Source: a virus
DNA: 20,000 nt
Reading direction: 5' to 3' (one strand)
Virus record (IMG/VR): IMGVR_UViG_3300010155_000149
Coordinates: 1-20,000 of that record
Below, one piece after another: positions 1-15,709 of the stretch (within the stretch, counting starts at the first letter, position 1; each line of letters starts with the position of its first letter). Below the pieces are notes generated by a model, which ran no database searches, was not told where the DNA came from, and saw only the letters and a program-made list of their open reading frames with translations. A program made the position numbers and the translations under genes.

Positions 1-179
1 CCAATTATGTAAGTGTTGCTCCTGGTTCGGATTATACAGCTGTAATAACAGGTGTGGCGGGGGTAGGAAACCTGGTCACCATTACTTGTGTATGGGATGC
101 AAATTATAATGGAAGTCATTCTTCTATTTCAACAAATAGAACAGCTACAATAGATGTGTTTGTAGCATTGATAGATTAA
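1..179 (+). CDS. C-terminal end of an unidentified, probably virion structural protein (partial)
   Basis: The reading frame is open from base 3 and ends with TAA at 177-179, leaving 58 visible residues; the start lies outside the window. The peptide is rich in small, polar and beta-branched residues (for example NYVSVAPGSDYTAVITGVAG near the left edge, and RTATIDVFVALID at the end). That composition suits a beta-sandwich end domain of a tail or fibre protein, but I recognise no family. The muramidase gene follows 19 bases later with its own strong ribosome binding site. Function is not assigned; the structural guess is inferred from composition and context only. Confidence 0.6.
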   Translation, partial: NYVSVAPGSDYTAVITGVAGVGNLVTITCVWDANYNGSHSSISTNRTATIDVFVALID

Positions 180-198
180 ATTATTAAGGAGAAATAAA

Positions 199-675
199 AT
201 GAAAGTTACTTTCGATGAAATAATAGAAGTAGTACTCGAACACGAGGGAGGCTACGTTAACGATCCGAAGGATCCAGGAGGGGAGACCAAGTACGGTGTC
301 TCTAAGCGTGCGTACCCGAATGAGGATATCAAAAACCTCACGGAAGAGGGTGCTAAGGATATTTATAGAAGAGATTATTGGGATAAGAACCGCTGTGCGG
401 AACTTTCCGAAGACCTTCGTCACATATACTTTGACATGTGTGTCAATATGGGTGCTGGACGCGCGACTAAGATCATGCAAGAAACAGCAAACGCTAAAGG
501 AGCCAATCTAAAAATAGACGGAGGTATGGGCCCAATGACTATAGGAGCCATGAAGAATGTGGAGTTAGAACGAGTTAGAGCTTACAGGGTGAAGTATTAT
601 GCTACTCTTATCGAGCGCAAACCCGATTTAGCCAAATTTTACTTCGGTTGGTTTAAGAGAAGCTTGGAAGTCTAG
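199..675 (+). CDS. Endolysin: GH108-type N-acetylmuramidase
   Basis: This 158-residue protein is a peptidoglycan-cleaving muramidase expected to act in host lysis. Near the N-terminus it has the GH108 hallmark HEGGYVNDPKDPGGETKYGV (residues 15-34); E16 of the EGGY motif is the family's catalytic glutamate. The C-terminal half has a DGGMGPMTIGAM stretch (residues 108-118) like the peptidoglycan-binding domain usually paired with GH108. Length is typical for a single-unit phage lysozyme of this kind. No signal peptide or membrane segment is visible, so export would need a holin, and none is seen here. The start is supported by AAGGAG at 186-191, seven bases before ATG. The gene lies upstream of the packaging genes and is visibly richer in G and C than its right-hand neighbour. 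A virion-associated role in host entry cannot be excluded. Confidence 0.9.
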   Translation: MKVTFDEIIEVVLEHEGGYVNDPKDPGGETKYGVSKRAYPNEDIKNLTEEGAKDIYRRDYWDKNRCAELSEDLRHIYFDMCVNMGAGRATKIMQETANAKGANLKIDGGMGPMTIGAMKNVELERVRAYRVKYYATLIERKPDLAKFYFGWFKRSLEV

Positions 676-683
676 GAAAAAAC

Positions 684-3161
684 ATGTCTGACCTTTTTTC
701 AAAAAGATTAGTTTACGATACTATTTACGGTGAAGGTGCGGTAGTATTGGATTCTGATACTATTTCGCAGTTTTTGTACGAGACTGGAATACTTAGTGAG
801 TCTACTAAGGCCGCTAACATTAACAGTATCTCTGACGAGGGATTGTACGATTTCTTTGCAAGTTTTGCCGATTACAAACGAATTACTGATAATAAGGCGA
901 AGGTAATTTTAGGGTGGCCAGTTTTAAATTATATGCTTGATGATAATGCTGCTGATCCGTTTTACGAATTGAATATGACGACTAATACGGATATTAGTAG
1001 AGCTGATTCGGTCAGCTACGGTGGTGCTGTTCTTATGGGTACCACTACACCGGACAAGAAGTATATGAAGGAAATGGAAAAAATAGCTGCGGATTTAGGT
1101 TGGAGTATCGTTCGTTGGATGGGAGTGGGACCTAACAGGCAGAGTAAGGTTGTGGTTATACCGTCTAAGGATTTGGGAGAAATGCCGGCTAGGTTGAATG
1201 AGGATATTACCATTACTGTACAGTACAACGAAGCAGCGTGGCCTGCGACTGAGGATTTCGGAGCTAGTTCTGGAATGTTACCCTCTCCAAGTAGAAAGGG
1301 AGTAAAGAAAGCTAAGAAGCGAAAGGATAAATCTGTTTATTGTGAGGAAGAAAACAATATAGAAAAGATAATAGCTATATATCCTGGTAGGTTTCAACCG
1401 TTCGGTCCTCATCACGAGAAGACTTATAAATTTTTAACGAAGAGATTTGATAATGTTTACATAGCGACGTCTAATAAGAGTGGAGGAAGTAGACATCCAA
1501 TGAATTTTTCTCAAAAGAAAAAGCACATGCAAAAAATGGGAATACCTTCATCCGCAATTGTTCAAGAAAGTCAACCGTACATACCAAAGGGTTTGTTAAG
1601 AAAGTTTGATGCTGATACTACTGCTGCAGTGTTTGCTGTGGGAAAAAAGGACGAAGGAAGGTTATCGGGTGGAAAATATTTTATACCGTACAGTAAAAAT
1701 TACATGAGATTAGAAGGATTCAAGGAACACGGGTACACATTAAAAGCGCCACATATATCGGTTAAGGTGGGAGGTCATGAAATAAATGGTACTACGATGA
1801 GAAAATTATTAGGTTCGGAAAAATATGATTTGGGTATTAAGAAGAAATTTTTTAAGAAGATGTTTGGTTATTATGATCAGAAAACGTTTGATCTTTTTGT
1901 GAATTCGTTTGAAGAGGGATTAATTTTAGAAGGTGGTGCTTACGGTCATATGGCACATCCATTCGATGATTATGAATTGACTTTCGGAGACTTAAGGGAA
2001 ATTATTGAAATGGGTCTTCAGGGTAAATTAGATAAGGAAGAGTCTGCTACTGAAAAACTAGACGGTCAGAATATTATGGTATCTGTTGTAGATGGAGAAG
2101 CAAAAGCTGCTAGAAACAAGGGAGATCTTAAACGTGGTGGCATGTCTTTAGATGATGTAAAGAATAAGTTTAAGCATCACATACCGACTGTTAGGAATGC
2201 TTTTGTGTATTCAATGAAGGATTTAAAATCAGCTTTAGAAAAATTTAGTAAGAAAGATCAGGAAGCACTGTTTGATAACGGTAAAAATTGGGCAAACATA
2301 GAGATAATCTATCCGGATACGAAGAACGTGATTGACTACGATGGTGGTGCACAGATTATATTTCACGGCATTCTCAAGTACGATGATAAGTGGAGTCCTC
2401 GGGGTGAAGTGAGGAGTGGTGGAGCTAAATTATCTACTATTATCAATAAGATAAATAAGGGTATACAGACTAAATTTGCGTTTAAGGGACCGAATGTTCT
2501 TAAAATAGCCAAGGCAAAGGATTTTTCTAAGAAGAGACAAAAATATTTCGGTACTTTGGACAAGTTACGTAATATATATAGACTGAAGGATTCAGATGAG
2601 GTTTCGTTATATCACCAACACTTTTGGTTAGAGTATATTTTGGCTGGCGCCAATTCCACAGATTATTCAAACATACCAGACAATATTTTATATCCACTTA
2701 TGAAGAGATGGGCATTTAGTGATAAGTCGTACAAGATGACTGAGATTAATAAGCTAAAGGAAGATCATCCAGAGTTTGTAGATTGGGTTAAAGCTACTGA
2801 AAAATTAGATCATGCTAAGATGTTAAAGGAAAATATGCGCCCGTTTGAAGTATTATTTTTTGAGGTAGGAGCAGAGATATTGAGTAACGTTAGTAACTGG
2901 TTAGCTCCAAATCCAGATAAGACCGTACAAGCATTGAGAAGAGATTTAGCAAATGCGGCAAAACAAATACGTGGTAAGAAAGATCCATCTTCAATTGGTA
3001 AATTAAAAGCACAGCTATCTAAGATCGATTCAATGGGTGATCTGTCAAATTTAGTACCGTCCGAAGGTTTAGTTTTTAAGTACAAGGGTAAGGTTTATAA
3101 ATTTACGGGTTATTTCGCACCGATTAATCAAATTACGGGCTTAATGAAATTTTCGAGATAA
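684..3161 (+). CDS. Fusion of an NMNAT/cytidylyltransferase-like domain and a ligase-like KxDG nucleotidyltransferase domain
   Basis: This 825-residue protein has at least three parts. Residues 1 to about 220 are unrecognised and end in a lysine-rich linker (205-216). Residues about 228-410 resemble the NMNAT/cytidylyltransferase family: YPGRFQPFGPHHEKT (233-247) in the place of the HxGH nucleotide-binding motif, then INGTTMR (367-373) matching the second signature (ISGTxxR). The first His of HxGH is Gly241, giving GPHH. Residues about 415-825 carry covalent nucleotidyltransferase (DNA/RNA ligase superfamily) motifs: EKLDGQN with Lys458 as probable adenylated lysine, NIEIIYP (538-544) as motif III, SEGLVFK (793-799) as motif IV and KVYK (803-806) as motif V. 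About 250 mostly helical residues separate motifs III and IV, much more than in ordinary ligases. NAD metabolism, RNA or DNA end repair, or small-molecule adenylylation are possible; the substrate is unknown. The gene begins eight bases after the muramidase stop and leads into the packaging genes. Confidence 0.8.
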   Translation: MSDLFSKRLVYDTIYGEGAVVLDSDTISQFLYETGILSESTKAANINSISDEGLYDFFASFADYKRITDNKAKVILGWPVLNYMLDDNAADPFYELNMTTNTDISRADSVSYGGAVLMGTTTPDKKYMKEMEKIAADLGWSIVRWMGVGPNRQSKVVVIPSKDLGEMPARLNEDITITVQYNEAAWPATEDFGASSGMLPSPSRKGVKKAKKRKDKSVYCEEENNIEKIIAIYPGRFQPFGPHHEKTYKFLTKRFDNVYIATSNKSGGSRHPMNFSQKKKHMQKMGIPSSAIVQESQPYIPKGLLRKFDADTTAAVFAVGKKDEGRLSGGKYFIPYSKNYMRLEGFKEHGYTLKAPHISVKVGGHEINGTTMRKLLGSEKYDLGIKKKFFKKMFGYYDQKTFDLFVNSFEEGLILEGGAYGHMAHPFDDYELTFGDLREIIEMGLQGKLDKEESATEKLDGQNIMVSVVDGEAKAARNKGDLKRGGMSLDDVKNKFKHHIPTVRNAFVYSMKDLKSALEKFSKKDQEALFDNGKNWANIEIIYPDTKNVIDYDGGAQIIFHGILKYDDKWSPRGEVRSGGAKLSTIINKINKGIQTKFAFKGPNVLKIAKAKDFSKKRQKYFGTLDKLRNIYRLKDSDEVSLYHQHFWLEYILAGANSTDYSNIPDNILYPLMKRWAFSDKSYKMTEINKLKEDHPEFVDWVKATEKLDHAKMLKENMRPFEVLFFEVGAEILSNVSNWLAPNPDKTVQALRRDLANAAKQIRGKKDPSSIGKLKAQLSKIDSMGDLSNLVPSEGLVFKYKGKVYKFTGYFAPINQITGLMKFSR

Positions 3162-3164
3162 ATT

Positions 3165-3692
3165 ATGAATAGTGAAGATAGAGCATTAAAAGAAGTATTG
3201 TCTGGTAAAACACCAGAAAAACGAGTTATGGTCGGATATGAGGGTAAGGAGAAAAAACAGGGCGATATTAAGAGTAAACTTACCGATATAATGGCTGAAG
3301 TTCGTATGCCGTGGTTTTGTCCATCATGTAAAAAGATAATGAAAAAACGTTTAGATAACAAGTTTTGGAGACTGTTTAACCATTGTTTTGATTGTCAGCT
3401 TGCAATAGAACACGAAATGAGAGTTAACGGAACGTTTGAAACATATGAAAAGAAAAGATTTTTTGAAAATAGAAAAGCAGCAATATTAGACCAAATTCAA
3501 TCGATAGAGAATTGGAAGAATCAGGGTGATATGGAAGTAGTTGAACCGGTTAATGTAAACACAGGTTTTGTTCACATTGATAGGTACGAGATTCCTAAGG
3601 AGTTAGTGGCTGAAGCGGATGAAGCGTTAGCAGAATTGAGAGTTACTCTAGTAAATGTAGATGCTAAGTTGGATGAGTTATATGCCGACTAA
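3165..3692 (+). CDS. Conserved zinc-ribbon protein upstream of terminase; possible small-terminase (gp16) position
   Basis: This 175-residue protein has a clear four-cysteine zinc ribbon: CPSC at 52-55 and CFDC at 74-77, with 18 residues between the pairs. A charged helical region rich in E and K follows (about 81-120), and the C-terminal third is acidic and probably coiled. As I recall, proteins of this type, with RMPWFCPSC and NHCFDCQ motifs, sit beside the terminase in several marine T4-like viruses. In T4 the gene before gp17 is the small terminase gp16. Position suggests an equivalent role in DNA recognition or packaging, but T4 gp16 is not a zinc-ribbon protein, so this is inference. 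It starts three bases after the preceding stop, and its end overlaps the start of gp17, which suggests translational coupling. Confidence 0.75.
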   Translation: MNSEDRALKEVLSGKTPEKRVMVGYEGKEKKQGDIKSKLTDIMAEVRMPWFCPSCKKIMKKRLDNKFWRLFNHCFDCQLAIEHEMRVNGTFETYEKKRFFENRKAAILDQIQSIENWKNQGDMEVVEPVNVNTGFVHIDRYEIPKELVAEADEALAELRVTLVNVDAKLDELYAD

Positions 3693-5262
3693 GACACAGA
3701 TAAAACAGACAATTAAAGAAGAATACGTTAAGTGTGCATTAGATCCTGCATATTTTATGCGCGAGTATTGTTACATTCAGCATCCTATTCGTGGAAAAAT
3801 AAAATTTGATTTGTATGATTTTCAAGAAAGAGTCATGAGTGATTTTAAAGATCACGATTATAATATTATTCTCAAAGCTAGACAATTGGGATTATCTACG
3901 TTATCTGCTGGATATTCTCTTTGGATGATGACCTTTCAGAATGATAAAAATATCCTTGTGATTGCAACTAAACAAGAGGTAGCAAAGAATTTAGTTACTA
4001 AGGTAAGAGTTATGCATAAGGAATTACCCAGATGGTTGAAACAAGATTGTGTCGAAGATAATAAATTGTCTATGCGATATATCAATGGATCGCAGATAAA
4101 GGCAATCTCTTCAACTAGTGAGGCTGGTCGTTCTGAAGCACTGTCTCTATTAATCATGGATGAGGCAGCATTTATAAAGAACATTGATGAAATATGGGCA
4201 GCATCACAGCAAACATTGGCAACTGGTGGTAAGTGTATTGCCCTTTCTACTCCGAATGGGATGGGAAATTGGTTTCATAAAACATGGTCAGATGCTGAAG
4301 CAGCTCAAAACAAATTTAATTTTATTAAGCTTCACTGGTCTATTCATCCAAACAGGGGAGATGTATGGAGAGAAGAACAGAACAAACTTTTAGGACCAGA
4401 TATGGCAGCTCAAGAGTGCGATTGCGATTTTGTAAGTTCAGGAAAATCAGTTATTCCCGGTGAAGTATTAAAACATATTCAAGAAACTACAGTTTGTTCT
4501 CCAGTTGAAAAGAGATATCATGAGGACTTATGGATTTGGAAACCACCTGATTCAAATGGTAGATATTTGGTTTCTGCAGACGTAGCACGAGGAGATGGCG
4601 AAGATTTTTCAGCATTTCATGTTTTAGATTTGAATACGTTAGAACAAGTTGCAGAATACAAGTCTAAAGAAGATACGACGCGTTATTCTGGAATATTAAT
4701 GTCAGTAGCAACAGAATATAATGATGCGTTATTGGTAGTTGAAAATAACAATGTTGGATGGGCTGTATTACAGGTCTTAATAGATAGGGATTATAAAAAT
4801 TTATTTTGGATGAAAAAAGATTTGAAGTATGTAGATTCTAAAACTCAATATACCAACAAGTATAGGGGGGAAAACAAGTACATGGTTCCAGGATTTACTA
4901 CTTCTATGAAAAGCAAACCATTAATCATAGAAACACTTTCTAAATTTATTAGGGAATCTTCAGTTAGAATAAACTCTATTAGATTAGTGGATGAATTATT
5001 TGTATTTATATTTAATAATGGTAAGGCTGAAGCGCTGAAAAGTTATAATGATGATTTAGTCATGAGCCTTGCTATTGGTCTTTGGGTTAGAGAGACTGCA
5101 TTGAGGCTTTATGATGATGAGATGCAAATGACACGAAATACGATGGAAAAAATAGATAGTAATGCTGGTGTTTACAAGGTTGAGAATCATGAAGATCTCG
5201 GTTGGGAAATGCCAGTTGGAGATGAAATAGAATCATTAACTTGGTTAATAGGTAAGGAATAA
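3682..5262 (+). CDS. 17: Terminase large subunit (gp17-like ATPase-nuclease)
   Basis: This is the motor ATPase and headful nuclease that packages DNA through the portal. Numbering is from ATG 3682 (526 residues). The ATPase domain shows a Walker A-type KARQLGLST (65-73), Walker B LLIMDEA (156-162, with Asp160 and Glu161) and the coupling motif STPNG (189-193). The nuclease domain shows three acidic positions: Asp300 in VSADVARGDGED, Glu354 in VVENNN and the Asp pair at 457-458 in YNDDLV. This layout and length match the T4 gp17 family, although T4's own protein is longer (610 residues). ATG 3661 and ATG 3673 are also in frame. I prefer 3682 because a GGATGAG stretch lies just before it, it gives an 11-base overlap with the upstream gene, and MPTKTQIKQ begins the recognisable family N-terminus. 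The portal gene follows after one base. Confidence 0.95.
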   Translation: MPTKTQIKQTIKEEYVKCALDPAYFMREYCYIQHPIRGKIKFDLYDFQERVMSDFKDHDYNIILKARQLGLSTLSAGYSLWMMTFQNDKNILVIATKQEVAKNLVTKVRVMHKELPRWLKQDCVEDNKLSMRYINGSQIKAISSTSEAGRSEALSLLIMDEAAFIKNIDEIWAASQQTLATGGKCIALSTPNGMGNWFHKTWSDAEAAQNKFNFIKLHWSIHPNRGDVWREEQNKLLGPDMAAQECDCDFVSSGKSVIPGEVLKHIQETTVCSPVEKRYHEDLWIWKPPDSNGRYLVSADVARGDGEDFSAFHVLDLNTLEQVAEYKSKEDTTRYSGILMSVATEYNDALLVVENNNVGWAVLQVLIDRDYKNLFWMKKDLKYVDSKTQYTNKYRGENKYMVPGFTTSMKSKPLIIETLSKFIRESSVRINSIRLVDELFVFIFNNGKAEALKSYNDDLVMSLAIGLWVRETALRLYDDEMQMTRNTMEKIDSNAGVYKVENHEDLGWEMPVGDEIESLTWLIGKE

Positions 5263-5263
5263 A

Positions 5264-7066
5264 ATGGCACAACAAGATACATTTTTTGATAGAATTAAAC
5301 GATTATTTTCTACTAATGTTATAGTAAGAAATATTGGTGGTAGGAGGTTGAAGGTCGTAGATACGAGTCAACTTCAAGCTGGATCCAAATCATTAATGGA
5401 TAGGTATACTAGAATGTATACAACTCAATCTGGTTATGGTGGATATATGGGGTATTCTGGAGAATTGGCTAAGGCTCAAAGAATATCTCTGTTTAGAGAT
5501 TACGAAGCTATGGATGATGATGCAATAATTTCCTCTGCTTTAGATGTGTATGCGGATGAATCTACAATGAAATCTGAGTATGGAAATGTATTAGAGATTA
5601 AAAGCAATAACACTCAAATTGTCGAAATATTAAATAATTTATTTTACGATATACTAAATATAGAATTCAATTTATGGCCGTGGATTAGAAACATGTGTAA
5701 GTATGGAGATTTTTTCTTGCATTTGGAGCTAGCAGAAAAGTATGGAATTGTAAATGTATATCCTCTTTCTCCGTATGATGTGTCTAGAATAGAAGCATTT
5801 AATCCTGAGAATCCTCAAGAAACAAAATTTATTTTGGATGCTACTGATCCAAGAAATATGCCGGCTAACGCAAATAGAACAGAATTTGAAAATTTTGAAA
5901 TAGCTCATTTTAGATTGTTGTCTGATTCGAATTATTTACCTTACGGTAAGTCTATGGCAGAGGGTGGTCGACGTACTTGGAAACAACTTTCACTGATGGA
6001 AGATGCAATGCTTATTCATAGAATTATGCGGGCTCCTGAAAAAAGAGTTTTTAAGGTAGATATAGGTAATTTACCACCTAGTGAAGTAGACACGTACATG
6101 AAACGAATCATTGATAAGATGAAAAAAGCTCCGGTCGTGGACGAAAATACAGGTGAATACAATCTCAAGTATAATATGCAAAATTTAACTGAAGATTTTT
6201 ACTTACCTGTTCGTGGTGGAGATAGTGGAACAGCAATTGATGCTCTTCCAGGGTTGACATACGAAGCAGTTGAAGATATAGAGTATTTAAGAAATAAACT
6301 TTTAGCATCTCTTAAAATTCCAAAGGCCTTTTTAGGATATGAAGAGGAAGTAGGATCGAAAGCAACGTTAGCAGCAGAAGATGTTAGGTTTGCTCGTACT
6401 ATAGAACGAATTCAGAGAATTGTTATAAGTGAATTGACTAAAATTGCGGTAGCACATTTGTATTCTCAAGGATACACCGATGCGGCATTAGTAGATTTTG
6501 ATTTGGAGTTAACGAATCCGTCTACTATATACGAGCAAGAAAGACTGGATCTTTGGGAAAAGAAAAATGGTATAGCTAGAGATATGAAAGCTGAATCGTT
6601 AGTTTCTCACCAGTGGATTTACGATAATGTTTTTAACTTTAGTAATGAAGAGATTGAAAAACTTGCTGAAGAAGTCGTGGAAGATAAGAAAACTTTGTAT
6701 AGGTTGTCTTCGATTGAGAATGAAGGTAATGATCCGGCACAACCAGCACAGGAAGGTCAATTGGATTCTCAACCCGGGATGGAAGATGAAGATGAAGATG
6801 ATGATAAAAACAAAAATGTAGAATCAGATCGCGATCATGAAGATAGGGAGACGTACGGAGTCAGGGATGCATTGGGAAAATATGATTATACACATTCTGC
6901 TCAAAGAGACGATAGTCCAACTAAGCAAAATTATAGGGTTAGTCCGTTAGCATTATCTCATTTTGACTCAATGAAGAAGCATTATAATAAAAAAGAACTG
7001 AGATTGCTAAATGAAGTCGAGGACTTAGAGAACCATTTAAAAGAAAAACCTGCAAAATCAAAGTAA
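5264..7066 (+). CDS. 20: Portal vertex protein (gp20-like)
   Basis: This 600-residue protein forms the dodecameric DNA gate of the head and is the docking site for terminase and neck. Family features include RDYEAMDDDAIISSALDVYA near residues 78-97, RNMCKYGDFFLHLEL (142-156), and the MEDAMLIHRIMRAPEKRVF stretch in the middle, typical of T4-type portals. T4 gp20 is 524 residues; the extra length here is mostly a C-terminal tail. That tail includes QPGMEDEDEDDD beginning at residue 503, an acidic motif also found in two other head-region proteins of this window, and it ends in a lysine- and glutamate-rich helical segment. AAGGA at 5254-5258 supports the start, one base after the terminase stop. 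A 45-base gap containing a candidate promoter follows the gene. Confidence 0.95.
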   Translation: MAQQDTFFDRIKRLFSTNVIVRNIGGRRLKVVDTSQLQAGSKSLMDRYTRMYTTQSGYGGYMGYSGELAKAQRISLFRDYEAMDDDAIISSALDVYADESTMKSEYGNVLEIKSNNTQIVEILNNLFYDILNIEFNLWPWIRNMCKYGDFFLHLELAEKYGIVNVYPLSPYDVSRIEAFNPENPQETKFILDATDPRNMPANANRTEFENFEIAHFRLLSDSNYLPYGKSMAEGGRRTWKQLSLMEDAMLIHRIMRAPEKRVFKVDIGNLPPSEVDTYMKRIIDKMKKAPVVDENTGEYNLKYNMQNLTEDFYLPVRGGDSGTAIDALPGLTYEAVEDIEYLRNKLLASLKIPKAFLGYEEEVGSKATLAAEDVRFARTIERIQRIVISELTKIAVAHLYSQGYTDAALVDFDLELTNPSTIYEQERLDLWEKKNGIARDMKAESLVSHQWIYDNVFNFSNEEIEKLAEEVVEDKKTLYRLSSIENEGNDPAQPAQEGQLDSQPGMEDEDEDDDKNKNVESDRDHEDRETYGVRDALGKYDYTHSAQRDDSPTKQNYRVSPLALSHFDSMKKHYNKKELRLLNEVEDLENHLKEKPAKSK

Positions 7067-7070
7067 TCTA

Positions 7071-7083
7071 ATATTTATAAACG
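7071..7083 (+). promoter_or_regulatory. Candidate late-promoter element ATATTTATAAACG
   Basis: This lies in the 45-base gap after the portal gene. The same 13-mer recurs exactly at 12574-12586 in the gap before the neck genes. Read forward, TATAAACG differs from the T4 late-promoter octamer TATAAATA at two positions; read on the - strand, the exact octamer TATAAATA is present (7072-7079). Placement about 30 bases before the next start codon suits a promoter. No experimental support; orientation is uncertain. Confidence 0.4.
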
Positions 7084-7111
7084 AATGGAAACAACTTAGT
7101 TAAGGGATTTG

Positions 7112-7951
7112 ATGAAACATTCAAAATATAGAAATACGGGTCTATTATTCGAATTATTGACTCGACAAATAACTGCAGATATTTTAAATAATACGAAGTC
7201 TTCTACGGCTTCAGAGATTTTGAGGAAAAATTTTCACAAAAAATCTCAATTATTTAAAGAAAATCAACTTTTTAACGTTGTAATTGAAAGCAAGTTTAAA
7301 AGTAAGGATAGAGCAGTACACCTTGTAGAAACAACAGTTAAAGCATATAATAAGATAATCAATACGTCTGCTCTTAAGAGAGAAAAATATGAATTGATTA
7401 AGCAGATTAAGGAAAATTTTACGTTAACTGATTTCTTTCAGTCTAGAGTTTCTAATTATAGGCTTTTAGCAGCTATTCACAACGTTATAACTGAAAATTA
7501 CGACAATTTGGCTTATCATTCTAAGAGTCATCATACATTGATTGAACATATGACCCGGGTAGTACGTACTAAAGAGTCGTCAACCTTATCTAGGTTGAGA
7601 GAAGAAAACAAAGATTTGCGAGCTTTGGCGTATAAAATATTGATTGAAAGATTTAATAAGAAATATAGCGCATTAAATTCTAATCAAAAAGAATTATTGA
7701 GAGAGTACATAAATAATATTTCTAACACAAACGGTTTGAATGAATTTATGGAATCTAAGTTTAAAAGTATTGTTCATGAACTTAAGAAAACGTTTTCAAA
7801 AATTAGCGATAAAGTGATTAAGATTAAGATTAAAGAGTGTATACATTTGATAGAGAGTACGAATATTCAGGGAAAACATACTTCTAATGTTTTAAAGTTG
7901 ATGAGATTTTATCAATTGTTGGAGGATGTTAAACATGCAACTAAGTCTTAG
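7112..7951 (+). CDS. Unrecognised helical protein of the prohead region
   Basis: This 279-residue protein begins MKHSKYRNTGLLFELLTRQI and is rich in lysine, leucine, isoleucine and glutamate, consistent with an all-helical fold. I see no catalytic motif, signal peptide or membrane segment. In T4 the portal is followed by small prohead-core genes (67 and 68) before the protease; this protein and the next occupy that place, so a role in prohead core or early capsid assembly is a reasonable inference but not shown. It is much larger than T4 gp67 or gp68, and no homology is claimed. TTG at 7109 is also in frame; I prefer the adjacent ATG at 7112. AAGGGA at 7102-7107 serves as ribosome binding site. 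The gene end overlaps the start of the next gene by 17 bases. Confidence 0.75.
   Translation: MKHSKYRNTGLLFELLTRQITADILNNTKSSTASEILRKNFHKKSQLFKENQLFNVVIESKFKSKDRAVHLVETTVKAYNKIINTSALKREKYELIKQIKENFTLTDFFQSRVSNYRLLAAIHNVITENYDNLAYHSKSHHTLIEHMTRVVRTKESSTLSRLREENKDLRALAYKILIERFNKKYSALNSNQKELLREYINNISNTNGLNEFMESKFKSIVHELKKTFSKISDKVIKIKIKECIHLIESTNIQGKHTSNVLKLMRFYQLLEDVKHATKS
7921..7925 (+). promoter_or_regulatory. GGAGG ribosome binding site that fixes the next start at 7935
   Basis: A full GGAGG lies inside the end of the upstream gene. An in-frame ATG at 7926 touches it directly, too close for initiation, whereas ATG 7935 lies nine bases downstream at a workable spacing. The downstream gene is therefore annotated from 7935. 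Confidence 0.7.
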
Positions 7952-8354
7952 AGAATTAGTACGTGAATTGATTCAGCAAGAATTAGAAGAAGCCAGTACT
8001 ACTGGTAATATTGCTGGGTATCAAACCCCACATGCGTTTAGAAATGATGAAAAAGATGAGGAAGACGAATTGAAATTAAGTGATGGAATGACTGTTGCAA
8101 AAAAATTATCTGAGAGTACTTATTGGGATTACAGAAACGATGAATCAATGACAACGAAGCAGAAGCTTGCTAAGTCTATGATGAATATTCGGGATAGTAT
8201 TTCAATGCTTGAAAGAGCTGTAAAGTACAATGTAAAATTAAAGAATGAAATGAAATTTGGATCTGATAGTTATTATAAGAGAACAAAAGTTGCCCTTAAC
8301 AAAATTTCAGAAAAATTAGTTAGATTATCAACACGCATTAAGGATTTAATATAA
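7935..8354 (+). CDS. Small acidic/helical prohead-region protein of unknown function
   Basis: This 139-residue protein starts MQLSLRELVRELIQQELEEA, an amphipathic charged helix of the kind I recall at the N-termini of several small head-region proteins in marine T4-like viruses. A short acidic patch (NDEKDEEDELKL) follows at about residues 37-48, and the C-terminal half is basic and helical (repeated K/R with leucine and isoleucine). No enzyme motif is visible. It sits between the portal and the prohead protease, where T4 encodes prohead-core proteins, so a core or scaffold-accessory role is inferred from location only. The stop codon shares its last base with the start of the protease gene (TAATG), indicating tight translational coupling. 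Confidence 0.75.
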   Translation: MQLSLRELVRELIQQELEEASTTGNIAGYQTPHAFRNDEKDEEDELKLSDGMTVAKKLSESTYWDYRNDESMTTKQKLAKSMMNIRDSISMLERAVKYNVKLKNEMKFGSDSYYKRTKVALNKISEKLVRLSTRIKDLI

Positions 8355-8950
8355 TGAACAAAAATCTTCTAGTAGACACTATTGCATTTGATGTATCACA
8401 AGATCAGATACATGAATCTATAACCCGTAATGCTGGTAGGTTAGTGGTAAAGGGCACTCTTCAGAGAGCCGAATCTACTAATCAAAACGGACGAGTGTAT
8501 CCAAGAGATATTTTGGTTAGAGAAGCTAAGAAGTATACGTCTGAATTTATTAAAGAACGCAGAGCAATGGGTGAGTTAGACCATCCTGATAGTTCCGTTG
8601 TTAATTTAGCCAACGTTTCACATAATGTATTAGAGATGCATTGGACTGGAAACGATTTGGTTGGGACTATTGAAGTATTGAGCACACCTTCTGGTAACAT
8701 ATTGAAGGAGCTGTTCAAGAGTGGTATTAAATTAGGAATTAGTTCTAGAGGTTTGGGATCCATTAAGCAGGAAGCTAAGGGGGATGAAGTTCAAAAAGAT
8801 TTTGAATTGATTGCTTTTGATTTTGTATCCAATCCGTCTACTCATGGAGCTTTTTTACAACCGGTTAATGAAGCGAAAGGTTCTAGGGGTGCACATGAAA
8901 AGTGGACACAAGTTGAATTAGCTATTAGACATATTTTATTGGGGAATTAA
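8354..8950 (+). CDS. 21: Prohead core protease (gp21-like, MEROPS S77-type)
   Basis: This 198-residue serine protease would mature the prohead by cutting scaffold and capsid proteins. The order of motifs matches T4 gp21: a beta-rich start with GRLVVKGTLQRAESTNQNGR (28-47), GELDHP with His77 as probable catalytic histidine, GISSRG with Ser130 or Ser131 as probable nucleophile, and ELIAFDFVSNPS (151-162), where Asp156 may complete the triad. Length is close to T4 gp21 (212 residues). The last 25 residues (KGSRGAHEKWTQ onward) are not typical of the core fold and may be an autocleaved tail. It overlaps the upstream stop by one base, and the next gene begins two bases after its stop. Its probable substrates, gp22 and gp23, are encoded just downstream. 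Confidence 0.93.
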   Translation: MNKNLLVDTIAFDVSQDQIHESITRNAGRLVVKGTLQRAESTNQNGRVYPRDILVREAKKYTSEFIKERRAMGELDHPDSSVVNLANVSHNVLEMHWTGNDLVGTIEVLSTPSGNILKELFKSGIKLGISSRGLGSIKQEAKGDEVQKDFELIAFDFVSNPSTHGAFLQPVNEAKGSRGAHEKWTQVELAIRHILLGN

Positions 8951-8951
8951 G

Positions 8952-9467
8952 ATGAAACTCAAAAAGATTTTAGAAGAAAGTATCGGTGGCATGGTTGCTA
9001 TGGAAGCTATTGGTGATTTTAAAGGCGGTAGTAGGGGTGCTAAATTATCTGCTATTGCTAAGCAAATTGTACAAAAGGAAGAAGACGATGCTATAATGCC
9101 TCGCGAAGATTTAATTAAAAACGTTTCAGAATTTTCATCTTATGGACCTTCTATTTATAAGAAACACAATCTTAAAGAAGTTGGTAATATGTTTATAGAA
9201 ATTTCCAAAGCATGTAATAAGCATGTAGTAGAAGAAACGGCAGATTGGTTTGATAGAGTAACCGTTCAGCGTAATATGAATGAGTTGAAAAAGCAAGCTA
9301 CACAGTTTCATAAGATTGCTAATGAAGCACAGTCGTTACAGGATAGGATGTCTGCTTTGTACGAGGATATGGGTAATGTTTTGAATCGTTATTTTAAAAT
9401 AAACGAAGAACACGAACCTGGTCATGATGAAGATGATGAAGAGTTAAATGCTGGAAAAAATTATTAG
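8952..9467 (+). CDS. Helical acidic-tailed protein between protease and bS21, unknown function
   Basis: This 171-residue protein begins MKLKKILEESIGGMVAMEAI and is helical throughout, with a probable coiled coil around residues 105-150 (MNELKKQATQFHKIANEAQS and onward). It ends in an acidic tail, EPGHDEDDEE, starting at residue 155. That tail strongly resembles the repeated EPGHEDED and EPGMEDEE units of the scaffold protein encoded downstream and the QPGMEDED tail of the portal. No enzymatic motif is seen. Location and the shared tail suggest a prohead-core or scaffold-associated protein; this is inference. GGGGAA at 8941-8946 supplies a ribosome binding site inside the protease gene end, and the bS21 start codon directly abuts its stop. 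Confidence 0.75.
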   Translation: MKLKKILEESIGGMVAMEAIGDFKGGSRGAKLSAIAKQIVQKEEDDAIMPREDLIKNVSEFSSYGPSIYKKHNLKEVGNMFIEISKACNKHVVEETADWFDRVTVQRNMNELKKQATQFHKIANEAQSLQDRMSALYEDMGNVLNRYFKINEEHEPGHDEDDEELNAGKNY

Positions 9468-9665
9468 ATGGCTATCTACGTAAAGGTTATAGACGGTAAA
9501 ATAGAGTACGCATTAAAAAAGTTTAAAAAGAAAGTTAAGGATTCTGGTTTACTTCATGAAATACAAACTAGACAGTTTTATTTAAAACCTTCAGCAATAA
9601 AGCGTGAAAAAAGAGCAAAGGCAAGAGTTAGAGCTCAAATGAGATCAAAAAAAGCGATGCTTTAA
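9468..9665 (+). CDS. rpsU: Phage-encoded ribosomal protein bS21
   Basis: This 65-residue basic protein matches bacterial small-subunit protein bS21 nearly end to end. E. coli bS21 has [20 protein letters not shown] and REFYEKP; this protein has ALKKFKKKVKDSGLLHEI (15-32), RQFYLKP (35-41) and a lysine/arginine-rich C-terminal tail with KRAKARVRAQ. It is six residues shorter than E. coli bS21 (71). bS21 sits near the anti-Shine-Dalgarno end of 16S rRNA and helps mRNA recruitment, so a viral copy could swap into host ribosomes and favour viral mRNA. bS21 is known as one of the commoner ribosomal proteins in phage genomes. The start abuts the upstream stop with only a weak GGAAA-type site, so translation probably depends on coupling. 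A 124-base non-coding leader follows. Confidence 0.93.
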   Translation: MAIYVKVIDGKIEYALKKFKKKVKDSGLLHEIQTRQFYLKPSAIKREKRAKARVRAQMRSKKAML

Positions 9666-9789
9666 AATATATTACATATATTTATATCCAAATATAATGC
9701 ACTCACATTCGTTGAGTGTTATCAATTAATCAAACCGATTAAAGTTCCCAATAACTTTACAATGTAAAATCTCTTAGAGGAGAATCCTT
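9666..9789 (+). promoter_or_regulatory. Leader before scaffold gene: promoter-like AT tract and three small hairpins
   Basis: No ORF lies here. The left part holds ATATTTATATCC (9678-9689), whose - strand contains the exact T4 late octamer TATAAATA (9679-9686), and a forward TATAAT (9693-9698). Three inverted repeats follow: CACTCA/TGAGTG (9700-9705 with 9713-9718), TTAATC/GATTAA (9726-9731 with 9737-9742) and TTTAC/GTAAA (9756-9760 with 9764-9768). The gap ends in AGAGGAGAATCC (9776-9787), a strong ribosome binding site for gp22. The hairpins lack U-tracts, so they do not look like terminators. A promoter plus structured leader for the abundant scaffold and capsid mRNA is the likeliest reading. 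Confidence 0.45.
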
Positions 9790-10863
9790 ATGGATAAACT
9801 ATTGCAAGAAGCAATTGCAGACGCAAAAGCAGTACGCGAAACTGCGTTAGCAAATGCTAAATTAGCACTCGAAGAGGCCTTTACTCCACATCTGAAATCA
9901 ATGCTATCCAAAAAGCTACAAGCTGAAATGGAAGGCGAGGATGAGGAAGCCGATGACCCAGTAGAAGAAGAAATGGATTCTTCTGAAATCGGAGCCAGCG
10001 ACAATAAGGAACCTGATGCAGCCGCATCAGAGGCCGATAGTCAAGGACCCGAAGAAGAAGGATCAGCATCCGAAGCTGGGGCTGAAGACGAGGAAAACGA
10101 AAAAACTTCTGATCAAGCCGTAGGTGAAAACATGGAACCCGGTCACGAAGATGAGGATGCTGATGAAGCACCTGATCAAGCGATGGGTGAACAAGAAGAG
10201 CCCGGTATGGAAGACGAAGAGGGTGATGAAGATCCCGATTTAGAAGAAGTTTTACGTCAACTTGAACAAGAAATGGGTATGGAAGATGAAGAAGGCGAGG
10301 AAGAAATTCCTGAACCTGAAGTTGCAGCTCCTGCAGAGCAGGACGAACCTATGCCTGGTATGGAAGATGAAGAAGGCGAAGAAGAGGCTCCAGGAATGGA
10401 AGCCGAAGATGATGATATCGACTTAGAAGAAATTATCAAAGCTCTCTCAGAAGAGGGTGAAGATGAAGAAGAAGTCGAAGAACAAGAAGAGCCCGAAGAA
10501 GATCCGGCTGCTGAACTCGAAGAGTATAAGCAAACGGTACAGTACTTACGTGGTAAACTTCAAGAAGTCAATCTTCTCAATGCTAAGCTTCTCTACACTA
10601 ATAAGCTTTTCAGAAGCCGTAACATTTCTGAAACTCAAAAAATGAAAGTGATCGAACAGTTTGACCGCGCTGCTAACGTACGCGAAGTTAAACTTGTTTA
10701 CACTACATTTGCTGAGTCGATGAAACGTAAACCGGTTAATGAATCTGCTTCTAGAAAAGGTCAAGCTTCTAAACCAATGCGTTCAACTAAATCTCGTAAG
10801 CCAATCATCGGTGAGCAGGTCAATTTTAAGACCCGCATGAAGAAATTAGCTAACATTATTTAA
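9790..10863 (+). CDS. 22: Prohead core scaffold protein (gp22-like) with long acidic repeat region
   Basis: This 357-residue protein forms the core on which the capsid assembles and is later degraded by gp21. Three parts are visible. The N-terminal helix (LLQEAIADAKAVRETALANA, 4-23) and the C-terminal part (LQEVNLLNAKLLYTNKLFRS, about 257-276, then ISETQKMKVIEQFDRA) match scaffold proteins of marine T4-like viruses. Between them, residues about 46-237 are extremely acidic, with repeats of PGMEDEEG or close forms beginning near residues 116, 137, 163 and 189. T4 gp22 is 269 residues, so the acidic insert explains the extra length. The C-terminus is basic (KRKPVNESASRKGQASKP). Codon choice shifts here towards C- and G-ending codons compared with the upstream genes. 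The capsid gene follows after 14 bases. Confidence 0.92.
   Translation: MDKLLQEAIADAKAVRETALANAKLALEEAFTPHLKSMLSKKLQAEMEGEDEEADDPVEEEMDSSEIGASDNKEPDAAASEADSQGPEEEGSASEAGAEDEENEKTSDQAVGENMEPGHEDEDADEAPDQAMGEQEEPGMEDEEGDEDPDLEEVLRQLEQEMGMEDEEGEEEIPEPEVAAPAEQDEPMPGMEDEEGEEEAPGMEAEDDDIDLEEIIKALSEEGEDEEEVEEQEEPEEDPAAELEEYKQTVQYLRGKLQEVNLLNAKLLYTNKLFRSRNISETQKMKVIEQFDRAANVREVKLVYTTFAESMKRKPVNESASRKGQASKPMRSTKSRKPIIGEQVNFKTRMKKLANII
10111..10236 (+). repeat. Two tandem 63-bp (21-residue) acidic repeats within gp22
   Basis: GATCAAGC begins unit one at 10111 and unit two at 10174, 63 bases apart and in frame. The encoded units read DQAVGENMEPGHEDEDADEA and DQAMGEQEEPGMEDEEGDED. Shorter relatives of the second half (GMEDEEGEEE) occur again at about 10276 and 10357. 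Unequal expansion of an acidic unit explains the length of this scaffold. Confidence 0.75.
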
Positions 10864-10877
10864 CGGAGAAATTAATC

Positions 10878-12491
10878 ATGTCATTCAAAAAACAGATTAA
10901 AGACGTTATGGGTGGATACAATCCGCATAATGTGTTGCTAGACTCGTCCCGCAAATTGGTCAACAAATGGGAGCCAACAGGCTTACTCGATGGCATAAAA
11001 AATGAGAGCGAAACCGCCGGAATGGCTGTGCTTCTGGAAAACCAGGCGCGTCAGTTAATCGACGAAGCTTCTCAAGTGGGAACCTCGGCAAATCAAGAAC
11101 AATGGAGTGGCGTTGCCCTTCCGTTAGTTCGCAGGATTTTTGCTGAGCTATCAGCACAGGAATTTGTTTCTGTTCAACCTATGAACCTACCGTCTGGTCT
11201 AATTTTCTATTTAGACTTTAAATATGGTTCAACACAACAGGGTGGAAAATTACACGCGAAAGGTTCAGACCTTCACGGTGATACTTCCAGTTCTGGTGAT
11301 CCAGCTGGCGGCATGTATGGTGCCGGTAAGTGGGGATATTCAATTAACGATGCTGCCGCATCCGTAGTTGTAGCCGCTGCAAACGTAGTGACTGCTTCAG
11401 TAGCTGATGTTAGATTCGACGCGAATCTTTCAGCTTCAGCTGCAGGTAACAATCTTAGGAAGCTTACTTTTACAGCTCCCGCAGATGCTGATACCGATGG
11501 TGCAAAAGCATGGGCGATCCATTCCGGATCCGCCGCTAGTAAGGTAATAACCCATTACCCAGCTTTTACTTCAGTTTCTGGTACTTCAGTATCGATGATC
11601 ATCAGTGGTTCAGTTAGCGCTGCTGCAGATGAAAACATCAATATTGCGTATCATAAAGCTCCAGCCGAAACAAGTCGTGGTGACTTTGAAACCACGTTTG
11701 CATCCGAAGGATCTAATCCTGAAGAAACTAATGCAGGCATTCCTGAAGTCGACATTCAGATGCGCTCTATCGCTATTACAGCGAAGACTCGTAAACTGAA
11801 GGCCGTCTGGACGCCTGAATTGGCACAAGACCTCAACGCATATCACGCGGTGGATGCTGAGGCAGAACTGACAGCTATGTTGTCAGAGTACGTAACCATG
11901 GAAGTAGATTTGGAAATCATCGATATGTTGAAAACCCACGCTTCCGCAGCCACTGAATATTGGTCAGCTAAGGTTGGATACGAGTGGGGTGGATCAGCAT
12001 TTGATACTACTTCCGCTAACGCATCCGCTTACACCAAAGGTGAGTGGTTCCAGACTCTTGGTCACAAGGTCCAAGCAGTATCTAATGCAATTCACAAGAA
12101 AACTCTTCGTGGCGGTGCAAACTTTATGGTGGTCTCACCTGAAGTTGCTACTATCCTAGAAGTAATTCCTGGATTTGCTACGGATTCTGATGGGGATCCT
12201 GGTAAGAGTTATGCTATGGGCGTACAGAAGATCGGAGCGTTAAACAGCCGTTTCGACGTGTACAAGAATCCTTACCTACAGGACGATCAGATTCTCTGTG
12301 GTTTCCGTGGGGCTCAGTTCCTTGAAACAGGCGCTGTGTATGCACCTTATGTGCCACTGATCTTGACACCCGTTGTTTACGATCCGACTAACTTCACTCC
12401 ACGCCGTGGTGTGATGACTCGCTATGCTAAGAAAATGGTTCGTTCCGAATTCTACGGCTTAGTGAACGTCGCAGACTCAGGTCGCGTGTAA
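10878..12491 (+). CDS. 23: Major capsid protein (gp23-like)
   Basis: This 537-residue HK97-fold protein is the main shell subunit; T4 gp23 is 521. Family features include WEPTGLLDGIKNESETAGMA (31-50), NQEQWSGVALPLVRRIF, FVSVQPMNLPSGLIFYLDFK, and near the C-terminus PRRGVMTRYAKKM. The prohead protease of T4 cuts after I-x-E or L-x-E sites; I61-D62-E63 followed by Ala64 (QLIDEAS) lies almost exactly where T4 gp23 is cut after residue 65, so a mature protein starting at Ala64 is predicted. Residues about 150-290, rich in Ala, Ser and Thr, may include an insertion-type domain. CGGAG at 10864-10868 serves the start. The gene is the most G/C-rich in the window by eye and ends just before a strong terminator, both fitting very high expression. 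Confidence 0.96.
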   Translation: MSFKKQIKDVMGGYNPHNVLLDSSRKLVNKWEPTGLLDGIKNESETAGMAVLLENQARQLIDEASQVGTSANQEQWSGVALPLVRRIFAELSAQEFVSVQPMNLPSGLIFYLDFKYGSTQQGGKLHAKGSDLHGDTSSSGDPAGGMYGAGKWGYSINDAAASVVVAAANVVTASVADVRFDANLSASAAGNNLRKLTFTAPADADTDGAKAWAIHSGSAASKVITHYPAFTSVSGTSVSMIISGSVSAAADENINIAYHKAPAETSRGDFETTFASEGSNPEETNAGIPEVDIQMRSIAITAKTRKLKAVWTPELAQDLNAYHAVDAEAELTAMLSEYVTMEVDLEIIDMLKTHASAATEYWSAKVGYEWGGSAFDTTSANASAYTKGEWFQTLGHKVQAVSNAIHKKTLRGGANFMVVSPEVATILEVIPGFATDSDGDPGKSYAMGVQKIGALNSRFDVYKNPYLQDDQILCGFRGAQFLETGAVYAPYVPLILTPVVYDPTNFTPRRGVMTRYAKKMVRSEFYGLVNVADSGRV

Positions 12492-12516
12492 TCTTTATTG
12501 CACATTGATCATAATT

Positions 12517-12544
12517 AAAGGGGCTCTTCGTGAGCCCCTTTTTT
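12517..12544 (+). terminator. Intrinsic terminator after major capsid gene
   Basis: A 10-base stem AAAGGGGCTC (12517-12526) pairs with GAGCCCCTTT (12532-12541) around the loop TTCGT, followed by a T-run (12539-12544) and further T-rich sequence. It is 25 bases past the capsid stop. This is the only strong rho-independent terminator I see in the window and marks the end of the head transcription block. Confidence 0.92.
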
Positions 12545-12573
12545 ATTTTAGTGGTTACAAGTTCAGTTGAACG

Positions 12574-12586
12574 ATATTTATAAACG
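12574..12586 (+). promoter_or_regulatory. Candidate late-promoter element ATATTTATAAACG (second exact copy)
   Basis: This copy is identical over 13 bases to 7071-7083. It lies between the capsid terminator and the neck genes, exactly where a new promoter is needed, and about 28 bases before the next start. As with the other copy, forward TATAAACG is close to the T4 late octamer and the - strand contains TATAAATA exactly (12575-12582). The GGAG ribosome binding site for the next gene is at 12602-12605. Confidence 0.5.
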
Positions 12587-12613
12587 GAAACGTTTCTAAA
12601 TGGAGAAATAACA

Positions 12614-13777
12614 ATGGCTGTACCTATATGGCAAGGAAGTAGCTCTTTTCAACCAGGAGCAACTCCTTACGGTTTTTATGATGCTGATACAGAATTTTCT
12701 GGTTCTGGAGCACATTCTGTAGATAGATTTGCAGATTGGGCCGGCAGACGACTCGGATATCCTATCGTTGATATCGAAATGCAATCGGGATCTTTTTATG
12801 CTTGTTTTGAAGAGTCAGTTACTGAATATAGTTCGCAAGTCAATCAATTTAACATTAGAGATAACTTACTTCACCTTCAGGGTCAAGCTACGGGATCTAA
12901 TATTTCAGGTAAAAGAATAACGCCTACTTTGGGAAGAACTGTTTTTCTAAGCCAGCAGTATGGAACAGAAGCTGGAGTTGGTGGATATGTAGACTGGAAA
13001 AAAGGGAGTATCGATGTAGCCGTTGGAACTCAAGATTACGATCTTAACGCTTTGTGGTCTGCTGTTTCAGAATCTGGAAACTCTATCGAAATAAAGAAAA
13101 TATATCACGATGCACCTCCAGCTGTTCAAAAGTTTTTTGATCCGTATGCAACTACTGGGTACGGAACAGCTAATTTTATAGAAGGATTTGGTTTCGGTCA
13201 ATTTTCTCCAGCTACTAGTTTTGTTTTGATGCCAGTATTTGAAGATCTTTTAAGAATGCAAGCAATAGAATTTAACGACGAGTTTAGAAAATCTAGTTAT
13301 TCTTTTACGTTGATAAACAATAAATTACGTATATTCCCGATTCCTACTTCGACAACAAAGTTATATTTCGATTATATTCTGATGTCAGAGCGTGATAATA
13401 CATTGATAACGCCTGGTGGTGGGTCTGAAGATGTGATATCTGATTATTCTAATGTTCCGTACGATAATATAGAGTACAAGTTTATAAATGATGTAGGTAA
13501 ACAGTGGATAAAAAAATATGGTTTAGCATTGAGTAAAGAATTACTCGGTAATGTTAGAAGTAAGTTTGGTTCTATTCCAATTCCAAATTCTGAAGTAGTG
13601 TTAGATGGTGAAACACTGAGATCGGAAGCGACAACTGAAAAAGAATCGTTGATAGCAGAATTAAGGGAAACGCTAGAACAAACTAGTAGGAAAATTATGT
13701 TGGAAGCCGATAGCGAAGAGAGTACACGTTTGCAGGAAAAACTTAATAAAGTACCATTAAACATTTATATAGGGTAG
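12614..13777 (+). CDS. Neck / head-closure protein, probably gp13-like
   Basis: This 387-residue protein starts MAVPIWQGSSSFQPGATPYG and contains GYPIVDIEMQSGSFYACFEE, followed by EYSSQVNQFNIRDNLLHLQG, a helix-rich region resembling head-tail connector proteins of marine T4-like viruses usually called gp13. T4 gp13 is 309 residues, so this one is longer. The second half includes SYSFTLINNKLRIFPIP (beta-rich) and a charged C-terminal helix (about 335-378). gp13 binds the portal-neck interface and seals the filled head together with gp14. Support comes from the following two genes, which resemble gp14 and gp15 in that order. The assignment is by motif memory and context, so exact orthology is moderate. 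It is the first gene of the transcription block after the capsid terminator. Confidence 0.7.
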   Translation: MAVPIWQGSSSFQPGATPYGFYDADTEFSGSGAHSVDRFADWAGRRLGYPIVDIEMQSGSFYACFEESVTEYSSQVNQFNIRDNLLHLQGQATGSNISGKRITPTLGRTVFLSQQYGTEAGVGGYVDWKKGSIDVAVGTQDYDLNALWSAVSESGNSIEIKKIYHDAPPAVQKFFDPYATTGYGTANFIEGFGFGQFSPATSFVLMPVFEDLLRMQAIEFNDEFRKSSYSFTLINNKLRIFPIPTSTTKLYFDYILMSERDNTLITPGGGSEDVISDYSNVPYDNIEYKFINDVGKQWIKKYGLALSKELLGNVRSKFGSIPIPNSEVVLDGETLRSEATTEKESLIAELRETLEQTSRKIMLEADSEESTRLQEKLNKVPLNIYIG

Positions 13778-13781
13778 TCAG

Positions 13782-14267
13782 ATGCCTGGAAGATTTTTAC
13801 GGTCACGAGATTTAAACTTCTTTGATACTGTTAATAAGGAATTGATTGGAGATCCAAAATCCAAGAAGAATGGTGTCATAAATCAAGAAGTAGTCGTGTA
13901 TAAGATTTCAACGTATGAAACTCAACCAAATCTATACGGTGAATCTTCGTCGGGTCGTGTTTACAAGAACGGAATAAAGTTAGCTTGTATTATTGAAGCT
14001 GCAGATTTTGATTATGAAATAACAGAATTCGGTCCGGATCTTAATCAAGATGGAACGTTTTCTTTTCTTAGACAATCTCTTATTGATGTAGATTTTGTTA
14101 CAGAGATTGGAGATATAATTGAGTGGAATTATGCATATTGGGAAATAAACGAAATACAAGAAAATCAACTCATAGGTGGTATGCAAGAAAACAATCATGC
14201 TGTTATTTGCAATGCTTATTTATCAGAACAGAGTCGAGTTGGTATCGAAAGAATTAGAGCACACTAA
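13782..14267 (+). CDS. Neck protein, probably gp14-like (short form)
   Basis: This 161-residue protein opens with MPGRFLRSRDLNFFDTVNKE, then LYGESSSGRVYKNGIKLACI (about 52-71) and EIGDIIEWNYAYWEINEIQE (about 107-126). The pattern of an N-terminal FF-containing segment, a GES..K.Y motif and a late GD(I/L)I...F/W segment resembles T4-like gp14 neck proteins. T4 gp14 is 256 residues, so this would be a reduced form. Location between the gp13-like and gp15-like genes is the main supporting argument. gp14 works with gp13 at the head-tail joint. The start is four bases after the upstream stop and its own stop overlaps the next start (TAATG), so the three neck genes look like one translationally coupled unit. 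Confidence 0.6.
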   Translation: MPGRFLRSRDLNFFDTVNKELIGDPKSKKNGVINQEVVVYKISTYETQPNLYGESSSGRVYKNGIKLACIIEAADFDYEITEFGPDLNQDGTFSFLRQSLIDVDFVTEIGDIIEWNYAYWEINEIQENQLIGGMQENNHAVICNAYLSEQSRVGIERIRAH

Positions 14268-15661: not shown

Positions 15662-15667
15662 ACTTTG

Positions 15668-15685
15668 ATATTTATTAATAAATAT
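15668..15685 (+). promoter_or_regulatory. Perfect 18-bp palindrome ATATTTATTAATAAATAT; candidate late promoter
   Basis: The palindrome lies in the 48-base gap before the long fibre gene. Its right half AATAAATA (15677-15684) differs from the T4 late octamer TATAAATA by only the first base, on the + strand. Its left half begins with ATATTTAT, the octamer found in the other intergenic gaps. A GGAG ribosome binding site follows at 15699-15702. It could be a promoter, an operator, or both. Confidence 0.5.
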
Positions 15686-15709
15686 GCAGGAGTGAATGGA
15701 GAATAAAAC

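Follow-up and report, generated by a model that had tools for sequence, protein, structure and literature searches.

Why would a phage join a nicotinamide mononucleotide adenylyltransferase (NMNAT)-type domain and an RNA-ligase-type domain in one gene of its head operon? The question is raised by an open reading frame (ORF; P0001) at positions 684 to 3,161 of a 20,000-nucleotide viral stretch, positions 1 to 20,000 of IMG/VR record IMGVR_UViG_3300010155_000149, which was analysed as a whole and is called the window below; coordinates without another locus name refer to it, and all features given for it lie on its plus strand. The ORF begins with ATG, is free of internal stop codons and encodes 825 amino acids. 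A preliminary description of this DNA had reported an NMNAT-type domain followed in the same frame by a ligase-type domain, and we indeed recovered the ORF and all of these motifs at their places. It had also described the two domains as fused, but they need not act as one enzyme: among relatives they are interchangeable modules with protease-type sites between them, and one jumbo phage encodes them in two neighbouring genes. We favour the view that the ORF encodes a late, head-packaged precursor that the prohead protease cleaves into individual enzymes, which are injected for RNA repair and NAD support early in infection, and we hold with good confidence the narrower part of it, that the precursor is packaged and cut.

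Two predicted nucleotidyltransferase folds in one reading frame

The C-terminal half of the protein (residues 415-825; 1926-3158) was modelled by AlphaFold2 with a pLDDT of 90.5 and a pTM of 0.86, and structural searches with this model revealed the ligase fold on which the preliminary description had made its case depend. The top Foldseek matches were RNA ligases (E ~0.014), and a finer structural aligner (VIA) placed Naegleria Rnl first (Z 9.0 over 186 residues at 4.0 Å), followed by fungal Trl1, T4 Rnl1 and T4 Rnl2. All of the top 35 rows were ligases (Z 9.0 to 6.1), with the first unrelated row at Z 5.5; these Z values are middling, yet the rows agree with one another and the alignments span ligase motifs I to V. 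Motif I (EKLDGQN, residues 457-463; 2052-2072) contains the invariant Lys458 and motif III (NIEIIYP, residues 538-544; 2295-2315) the invariant Glu540, and motifs IV (SEGLVFK, residues 793-799) and V (KVYKFTG, residues 803-809) follow close together at 3060-3110. In an alignment of 38 ligase sequences, whose members are 34-75% identical to the window protein, E43/K44/D46/G47, R63, E126, E380/G381 and K392 (alignment numbering) are invariant.

The domain shares its fold and motifs I, III, IV and V with the Rnl2, Rnl1 and Trl1 RNA ligases (PF09414 and relatives), and its motif I, EKxDGQN in the family, resembles the Rnl2-type EKIHGTN. Unlike these enzymes, it has motifs IIIa and IV separated by a long helical stretch, no C-terminal domain after motif V, and a motif V (3090-3110) that reads K-x-T-G across the aligned family instead of the usual K-x-K, so that only the first Lys is retained. 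The insert of ca. 250 residues that had been noted between motifs III and IV is indeed mostly helical in the predicted secondary structure and includes a helical block of ca. 190 residues (2487-3050). The PF09414 gathering cut-off of 27 bits was not reached by the window protein (15.0 bits) or the best relative (18.8 bits), which makes this a divergent family and no PF09414 member by score; phmmer and profile searches of PDB sequences likewise returned no ligase or NMNAT match. Matches of the helical insert to eS6 in the PDB sequence search look composition-driven and were discarded, and an hhalign comparison with the single T4 Rnl2 sequence (E 0.02), which aligned motif I at very low probability, was not taken as proof. 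As modelled, the domain has a KxDG nucleotidyltransferase fold of the RNA ligase type, and we lean slightly toward RNA sealing as its chemistry.

The preceding NMNAT-type domain (residues 226-411; 1359-1916) was delimited with Pfam, PHROGs, AlphaFold2 and structural matches and carries GRFQPFGPHH at residues 235-244 and INGTTMR at residues 367-373. Taken as a single sequence, the window protein matches Pfam families weakly (CTP_transf_like, E 0.018; RNA_ligase, E 0.028) and the PHROGs cytidyltransferase family phrog_395 at 5.5e-5. Relatives raise both domains beyond doubt, with PF01467 matches of up to 2e-9 (in locus L108) and invariant ligase catalytic residues. Because the family is large, the catalytic residues are invariant and the predicted folds agree, the two sets of motifs are not a product of chance. 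The best structural matches of the NMNAT domain are NadM and archaeal NMNAT (2r5w, 2qjt, 1m8j and 1ej2; Z 11.6-11.0), with PPAT rows next at ca. 10, and residues 226-411 accordingly adopt an NMNAT Rossmann-like fold in the model.

The NMNAT-type domain resembles NadM and archaeal NMNAT in its fold and in the GxFxPx..H / xSGTxxR motifs but differs in having GPHH for HxGH in most members; moreover, a Nudix domain accompanies it in just some of the relatives or is encoded by a tagged gene of its own. In the window protein GPHH (1404-1415, residues 241-244) lacks the first His of HxGH, as is typical of its clade, and among 60 motifs of relatives FGPHH was found 38 times and FHxGH 17 times. The second His and the [IV]xGTxxR signature, INGTTMR in the window, are kept. 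HxGH is rewritten as GxHH, with the first His shifted to the third place, and this may be a catalytic variant. Given this replacement in most of the family, the domain is likely, though not certain, to act on NMN, and our judgement on NMN as the actual substrate is evenly balanced. The preliminary description had set the protein apart from known phage NAD enzymes, in which NMNAT is paired with a kinase or Nudix domain; this contrast holds, but both of these modules also occur in the present family.

What had been described as an unrecognised N-terminal domain of 220 residues resolves into several parts. A propeptide-like start of 39 residues (684-800) ends at the top-scoring predicted prohead-protease site, GILSE39|S (the bar marks the putative cut), and is followed by a small conserved module of ca. 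106 residues (residues 48-153, SDEGLYDFF...; 825-1142, as given by hidden Markov model envelopes) that we call nmod. A Lys-rich linker (PSPSRKGVKKAKKRKDK), together with another predicted site, ARLNE173|D (score 4.43), then connects nmod to the NMNAT domain (1200-1358). The AlphaFold2 model of nmod is of low confidence and too uncertain for a claim about its fold.

A large family with exchangeable modules

A first scan recovered 46 viral loci with family members, and a scan with the ligase alignment raised this to at least 565 viral stretches encoding the ligase domain, plus eight in metagenome-assembled genomes (MAGs) that are most likely phage contigs as well. Matches to isolates at the tblastn level were limited to Microcystis phage Mel-JY01 (protein WWT39297.1) and two huge-phage assemblies. 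The proteins range from 421 to 1909 amino acids and nearly all end with the ligase, and complete ORFs mostly also contain the NMNAT domain (59/62) and nmod (53/62). Other modules vary in order and content between and before these three recurring parts, and nmod itself sits after the NMNAT domain in distant relatives. The additional modules comprise an AAA_33/zeta-class P-loop kinase, HD, a PolyA_pol/CCA-adding head, an RNase_T exonuclease, NUDIX, Zn_protease and ParB_N; the CCA-adding module matches Pfam at 1e-29 and has the tRNA CCA-adding enzyme 1miv as its best PDB match (5e-32). Several of these types are among the enzyme classes that act in RNA repair, a subject reviewed for jumbo phages (PMC7824862). 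In jumbo phage LR756500, ligase (MKFLKSYEEFLNE|N...) and NMNAT are adjacent but separate genes.

Individual members depart further from the common layout. On a freshwater Pelagibacteraceae MAG contig (L130:4285-7242) the ligase precedes the NMNAT domain, opposite to the order in all others seen, and in locus L101 a Nudix domain lies inside the polyprotein. The member that carries the Zn_protease module (PF05618; L061:2509-3834) could help to process its own chain. The kinase module also occurs as a stand-alone or other head-region protein in the cultured marine phages HTVC008M and Melnitz. In the former, a SAR11 phage, the kinase gene is directly followed by that of a cytidylyltransferase-like protein of 596 aa, which contains DUF5824 and numerous LxE sites (L150:3654-5444), a parallel split arrangement. 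Cyanophage P-TIM68 encodes, next to its major head gene, a protein (AIR93449.1; L151:2782-3903) with a "KGQHR" module (KGQ...DLYTDENPKGT) between [LIVFM]xE sites; this protein resembles a small polyprotein of the type described here. We found no report of a phage NMNAT-RNA ligase combination in a search of open-licence papers, a scope that does not prove novelty.

Prohead-protease-type sites lie between the modules

In phage T4, gp21 cuts after Glu, as seen at the gp23 site FLTE65|A and the N-terminal gp24 site LLRE10|S, and it trims the Alt protein at ITE-6 and LTE-619 (PMC5694885). We searched for the corresponding motif, [LI]xE|[ASVGN], in the 30-residue stretches beside modules and compared the counts with shuffled sequences. 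The motif is present upstream of nmod in 45 of 50 clusters (7.4 expected, at most 16 in any shuffling) and upstream of the ligase in 47 of 66 (11.3 expected, maximum 22). It is depleted inside domains (1/182 vs. 9.5 expected) and found downstream of nmod in 5/50 (4.1 expected). Linkers that lead from an NMNAT domain to nmod contain it in 26 of 29 cases, compared to 4.7 in shuffles (maximum 12 among 2000) and 5 for the reversed motif. Furthermore, a hydrophobic-hydrophobic-x-E|GG pattern opens the ligase domain in 46 of 80 relatives, and it places a predicted cleavage zone, SFEE411|G / LILE416|GG, directly before the ligase of the window protein (1914-1931).

A site weight matrix trained solely on the N-termini of neighbouring proteins and the T4 gp23 and gp24 sites gave a similar picture, with matrix-positive Glu residues making up 25% in the NMNAT-nmod linker and 13% in the first 30 residues, compared to 2% in control proteins and 0.4-0.6% inside domains. 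The best matrix site of the window protein is E39, which scores 6.26 against a 98th percentile of 3.10 in the control; at the position matching GILSE39|S, relatives end in FINE|S, RINE|A or FLAE|S. The loose N-terminal [LI]xE is by itself no marker of packaged proteins, since it occurs 30 times among all proteins of two contigs where 21.9 are expected; a tighter pattern occurs 18 times, with 9.8 expected.

Capsid-targeting-like starts and the head operon

The tag of T4 internal proteins reads MKTYQEFIAE|A, and the family N-termini MDKLTEFLTKPFLNE|, MEKFIAELIEPLLVE| and MKFLKSYEEFLNE| resemble it. Head-region neighbour genes on related contigs have tags of the MIKLKDLLKE|S type, in one case on a NUDIX protein, and genes near the ligase/NMNAT pair of LR756500 begin with a similar tag. 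A stand-alone NUDIX protein (L139:10968-11369; PF00293, 1.6e-13) with the capsid-targeting-like start MIKLKGILME| is a candidate head-packaged Nudix hydrolase. In a 462-kb phage (L049), unrelated small proteins encoded near the ligase gene (9942-10416, 9227-9539 and 3935-4541) have similar starts (MEYVKLFEEFVN, MEFVKTYLEFINE and MKFILEYEKFLN), and their common start is likely a capsid-targeting sequence.

Experimental support of an independent kind exists for more distant proteins of cyanophages. NMNAT/cytidylyltransferase proteins were found in virions of cyanophages S-CBWM1, S-SZBM1, S-SCSM1, S-CREM2 and S-SM1 (PMC10665884, PMC9602691, PMC3037559), in the first four by mass spectrometry (PMC10665884, PMC9602691). 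The proteins of S-SCSM1 (ORF91), S-CREM2 (ORF154) and S-SM1 (T4-GC190) are like those of the window family in being NMNAT-like and in belonging to T4-like marine phages. The S-SCSM1 virion protein begins with the capsid-targeting-like MKSFLQFLKE|AAES and, as a distant relative, matches the NMNAT profile at 2e-5; it differs in that it is 409 aa long, no RNA-ligase domain was seen in it and its NMNAT sequence is distant.

The preliminary description had placed the gene in a late packaging and head operon, which agrees well with its surroundings: the order runs from a GH108 lysozyme over the polyprotein, a small ORF, the terminase large subunit (3661-5262) and the portal on to the prohead protease. 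A terminase large subunit gene follows the polyprotein gene in 91 of 93 loci and GH108 precedes it in 24 of 30; a prohead protease is present in seven of nine related contigs. The prohead protease of the window, our proposed processing enzyme, is of the T4 gp21 type (Peptidase_S77, PF03420, E 1.1e-27; 8354-8950), and the major capsid protein Gp23 (PF07068, E 2.2e-75; 10878-12491) has a T4-like site, QLIDE63|A. A small head-region protein (8952-9467) begins with the capsid-targeting-like MKLKKILEE|SIGG, similar to the tags on neighbours in related contigs, and an unassigned ORF of the head operon (7926-8354) has a comparable start (...ELEE|ASTTG); both are possibly cut by the prohead protease as well. 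The T4 late promoter (TATAAATA) has six matches, none of them on the coding strand, and lends no support.

A proposed head-packaged precursor and its alternatives

As we envisage it, the protein would be synthesised late in infection and enter the prohead core by means of an amphipathic capsid-targeting-like sequence at its N-terminus, which is perhaps repeated internally. The protease of the T4 gp21 type, whose gene lies 5 kb downstream, would cut it after (L/I)-x-E at module borders. The mature products would number at least three, namely nmod (residues 48-153), the NMNAT-type enzyme and the RNA-ligase-type enzyme, to which relatives would add P-loop kinase, HD phosphohydrolase, CCA-adding enzyme, RNase T-type exonuclease or Nudix. 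Injected with the DNA, these pieces would be active ahead of phage gene expression, the RNA ligase and optional end-healing enzymes mending tRNAs or other RNAs that defence nucleases of the host have cleaved and the NMNAT sustaining NAD. In this picture cleavage, packaging, injection, catalysis and the substrates or target RNA are inferred. Opinion could go either way on the still broader idea of a phage polyprotein, in which a row of enzymes is cut apart in the prohead, the virion brings along a complete set of enzymes for RNA repair and NAD at the start of infection and modules are swapped like cassettes between phages.

Several observations weigh against a packaged and processed precursor with these functions. 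The candidate sites just before the NMNAT domain and before the ligase of the window protein have low matrix scores, and one matrix hit, E439, falls into a predicted ligase helix. Linkers are rich in Leu and Glu, which explains in part why simple [LI]xE is raised in them, as is the reversed motif; a test at the breakpoints of high-scoring segment pairs was mildly positive (27.6% vs. 16.2% background, with 23.9% for the reverse motif); and the clusters behind the site counts share ancestry and hence are not phylogenetically independent. The additional RNA-repair modules belong to relatives and are missing from the window protein. NAMPT, as in a NARP2-like pathway, was present in only one of ten relatives' records tested, most of which are fragments, and its absence from the other nine weakens the case for a full NAD-rebuilding pathway. 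Finally, the cyanophage authors themselves cautioned that the NMNAT of virion preparations may have been carried over (PMC10665884).

The domains are covalently fused within one ORF in most members and RNA ligases are common as non-virion phage enzymes (PMC7824862), which would suit an uncut bifunctional enzyme that is made late and stays unpackaged, its NMNAT and RNA ligase parts cooperating in the infected cell. We consider this unlikely in view of the varying module order and content, the separate genes of LR756500, the strong enrichment of sites at junctions with depletion inside domains, and the NMNAT-like relatives in virions. It is less probable still that both domains are nucleotidyltransferases acting on other substrates to modify the host, be it by protein AMPylation, RNA capping or work on a small molecule. 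GPHH in the window's clade (38/60 motifs), K-x-T-G in ligase motif V, a ligase without a known C-terminal RNA-binding domain and a window protein that passes no Pfam family cut-off would all fit such a role, but the second His and [IV]xGTxxR are retained and the top structural matches are true NMNATs and RNA ligases.

Much the same low probability, if anything slightly lower, falls to a ligase that works on DNA instead of RNA and seals nicks at packaging or just after ejection, as might be proposed from the vicinity of terminase and portal genes and a fold common to DNA and RNA ligases. Structural matches rank RNA ligases (Z 9-8) over DNA ligases (Z about 7-5), motif I is Rnl2-like, and among the extra modules of relatives are a tRNA CCA-adding enzyme and an exonuclease of the RNase T type. 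Lastly, both folds could be relics in a protein that serves mainly as a structural part of the core or scaffold, which would match the head-operon position and the many gp21-type sites of the T4 core protein gp22; we regard it as very improbable because relics would not be expected to keep the catalytic K, E, E and K invariant over such a wide range.

Relation to known injected proteins and implications

The T4 internal proteins IPI-III and Alt, of which Alt is an injected enzyme with gp21 cuts (PMC5694885), resemble the window family in having an N-terminal amphipathic tag that ends in (L/I)xE| and a T4-type protease in the same operon, with the difference that here several enzymes would come from one precursor. 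The polyvalent proteins of Iyer et al. 2017 (PMC5512222) are likewise multidomain, combine unrelated enzymatic domains in changing order and are predicted to be injected with DNA, and the window family shares their multidomain build and variable architecture. Unlike them, for which processing by zincin-like peptidases was proposed, it has borders that fit the prohead protease, and its carriers are T4-like with RNA ligase and NMNAT as cargo. In the same study (PMC5512222), RNA ligases are mentioned only as unassociated with its 2H domains, and T4-type ADP-ribosyltransferases are not found in genuine polyvalent proteins.

If our reading is true, the prohead protease also serves as a polyprotein protease, and phage heads bring repair enzymes with them rather than awaiting early gene expression. 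Counter-defence against tRNA-cutting and NAD-depleting immunity would then have to be sought in the head operon, in the form of propeptide-tagged modules. The (L/I)xE border code would provide a sequence rule to list the cargo that abundant uncultured marine phages eject and could divide their "hypothetical" late proteins into testable enzymes.

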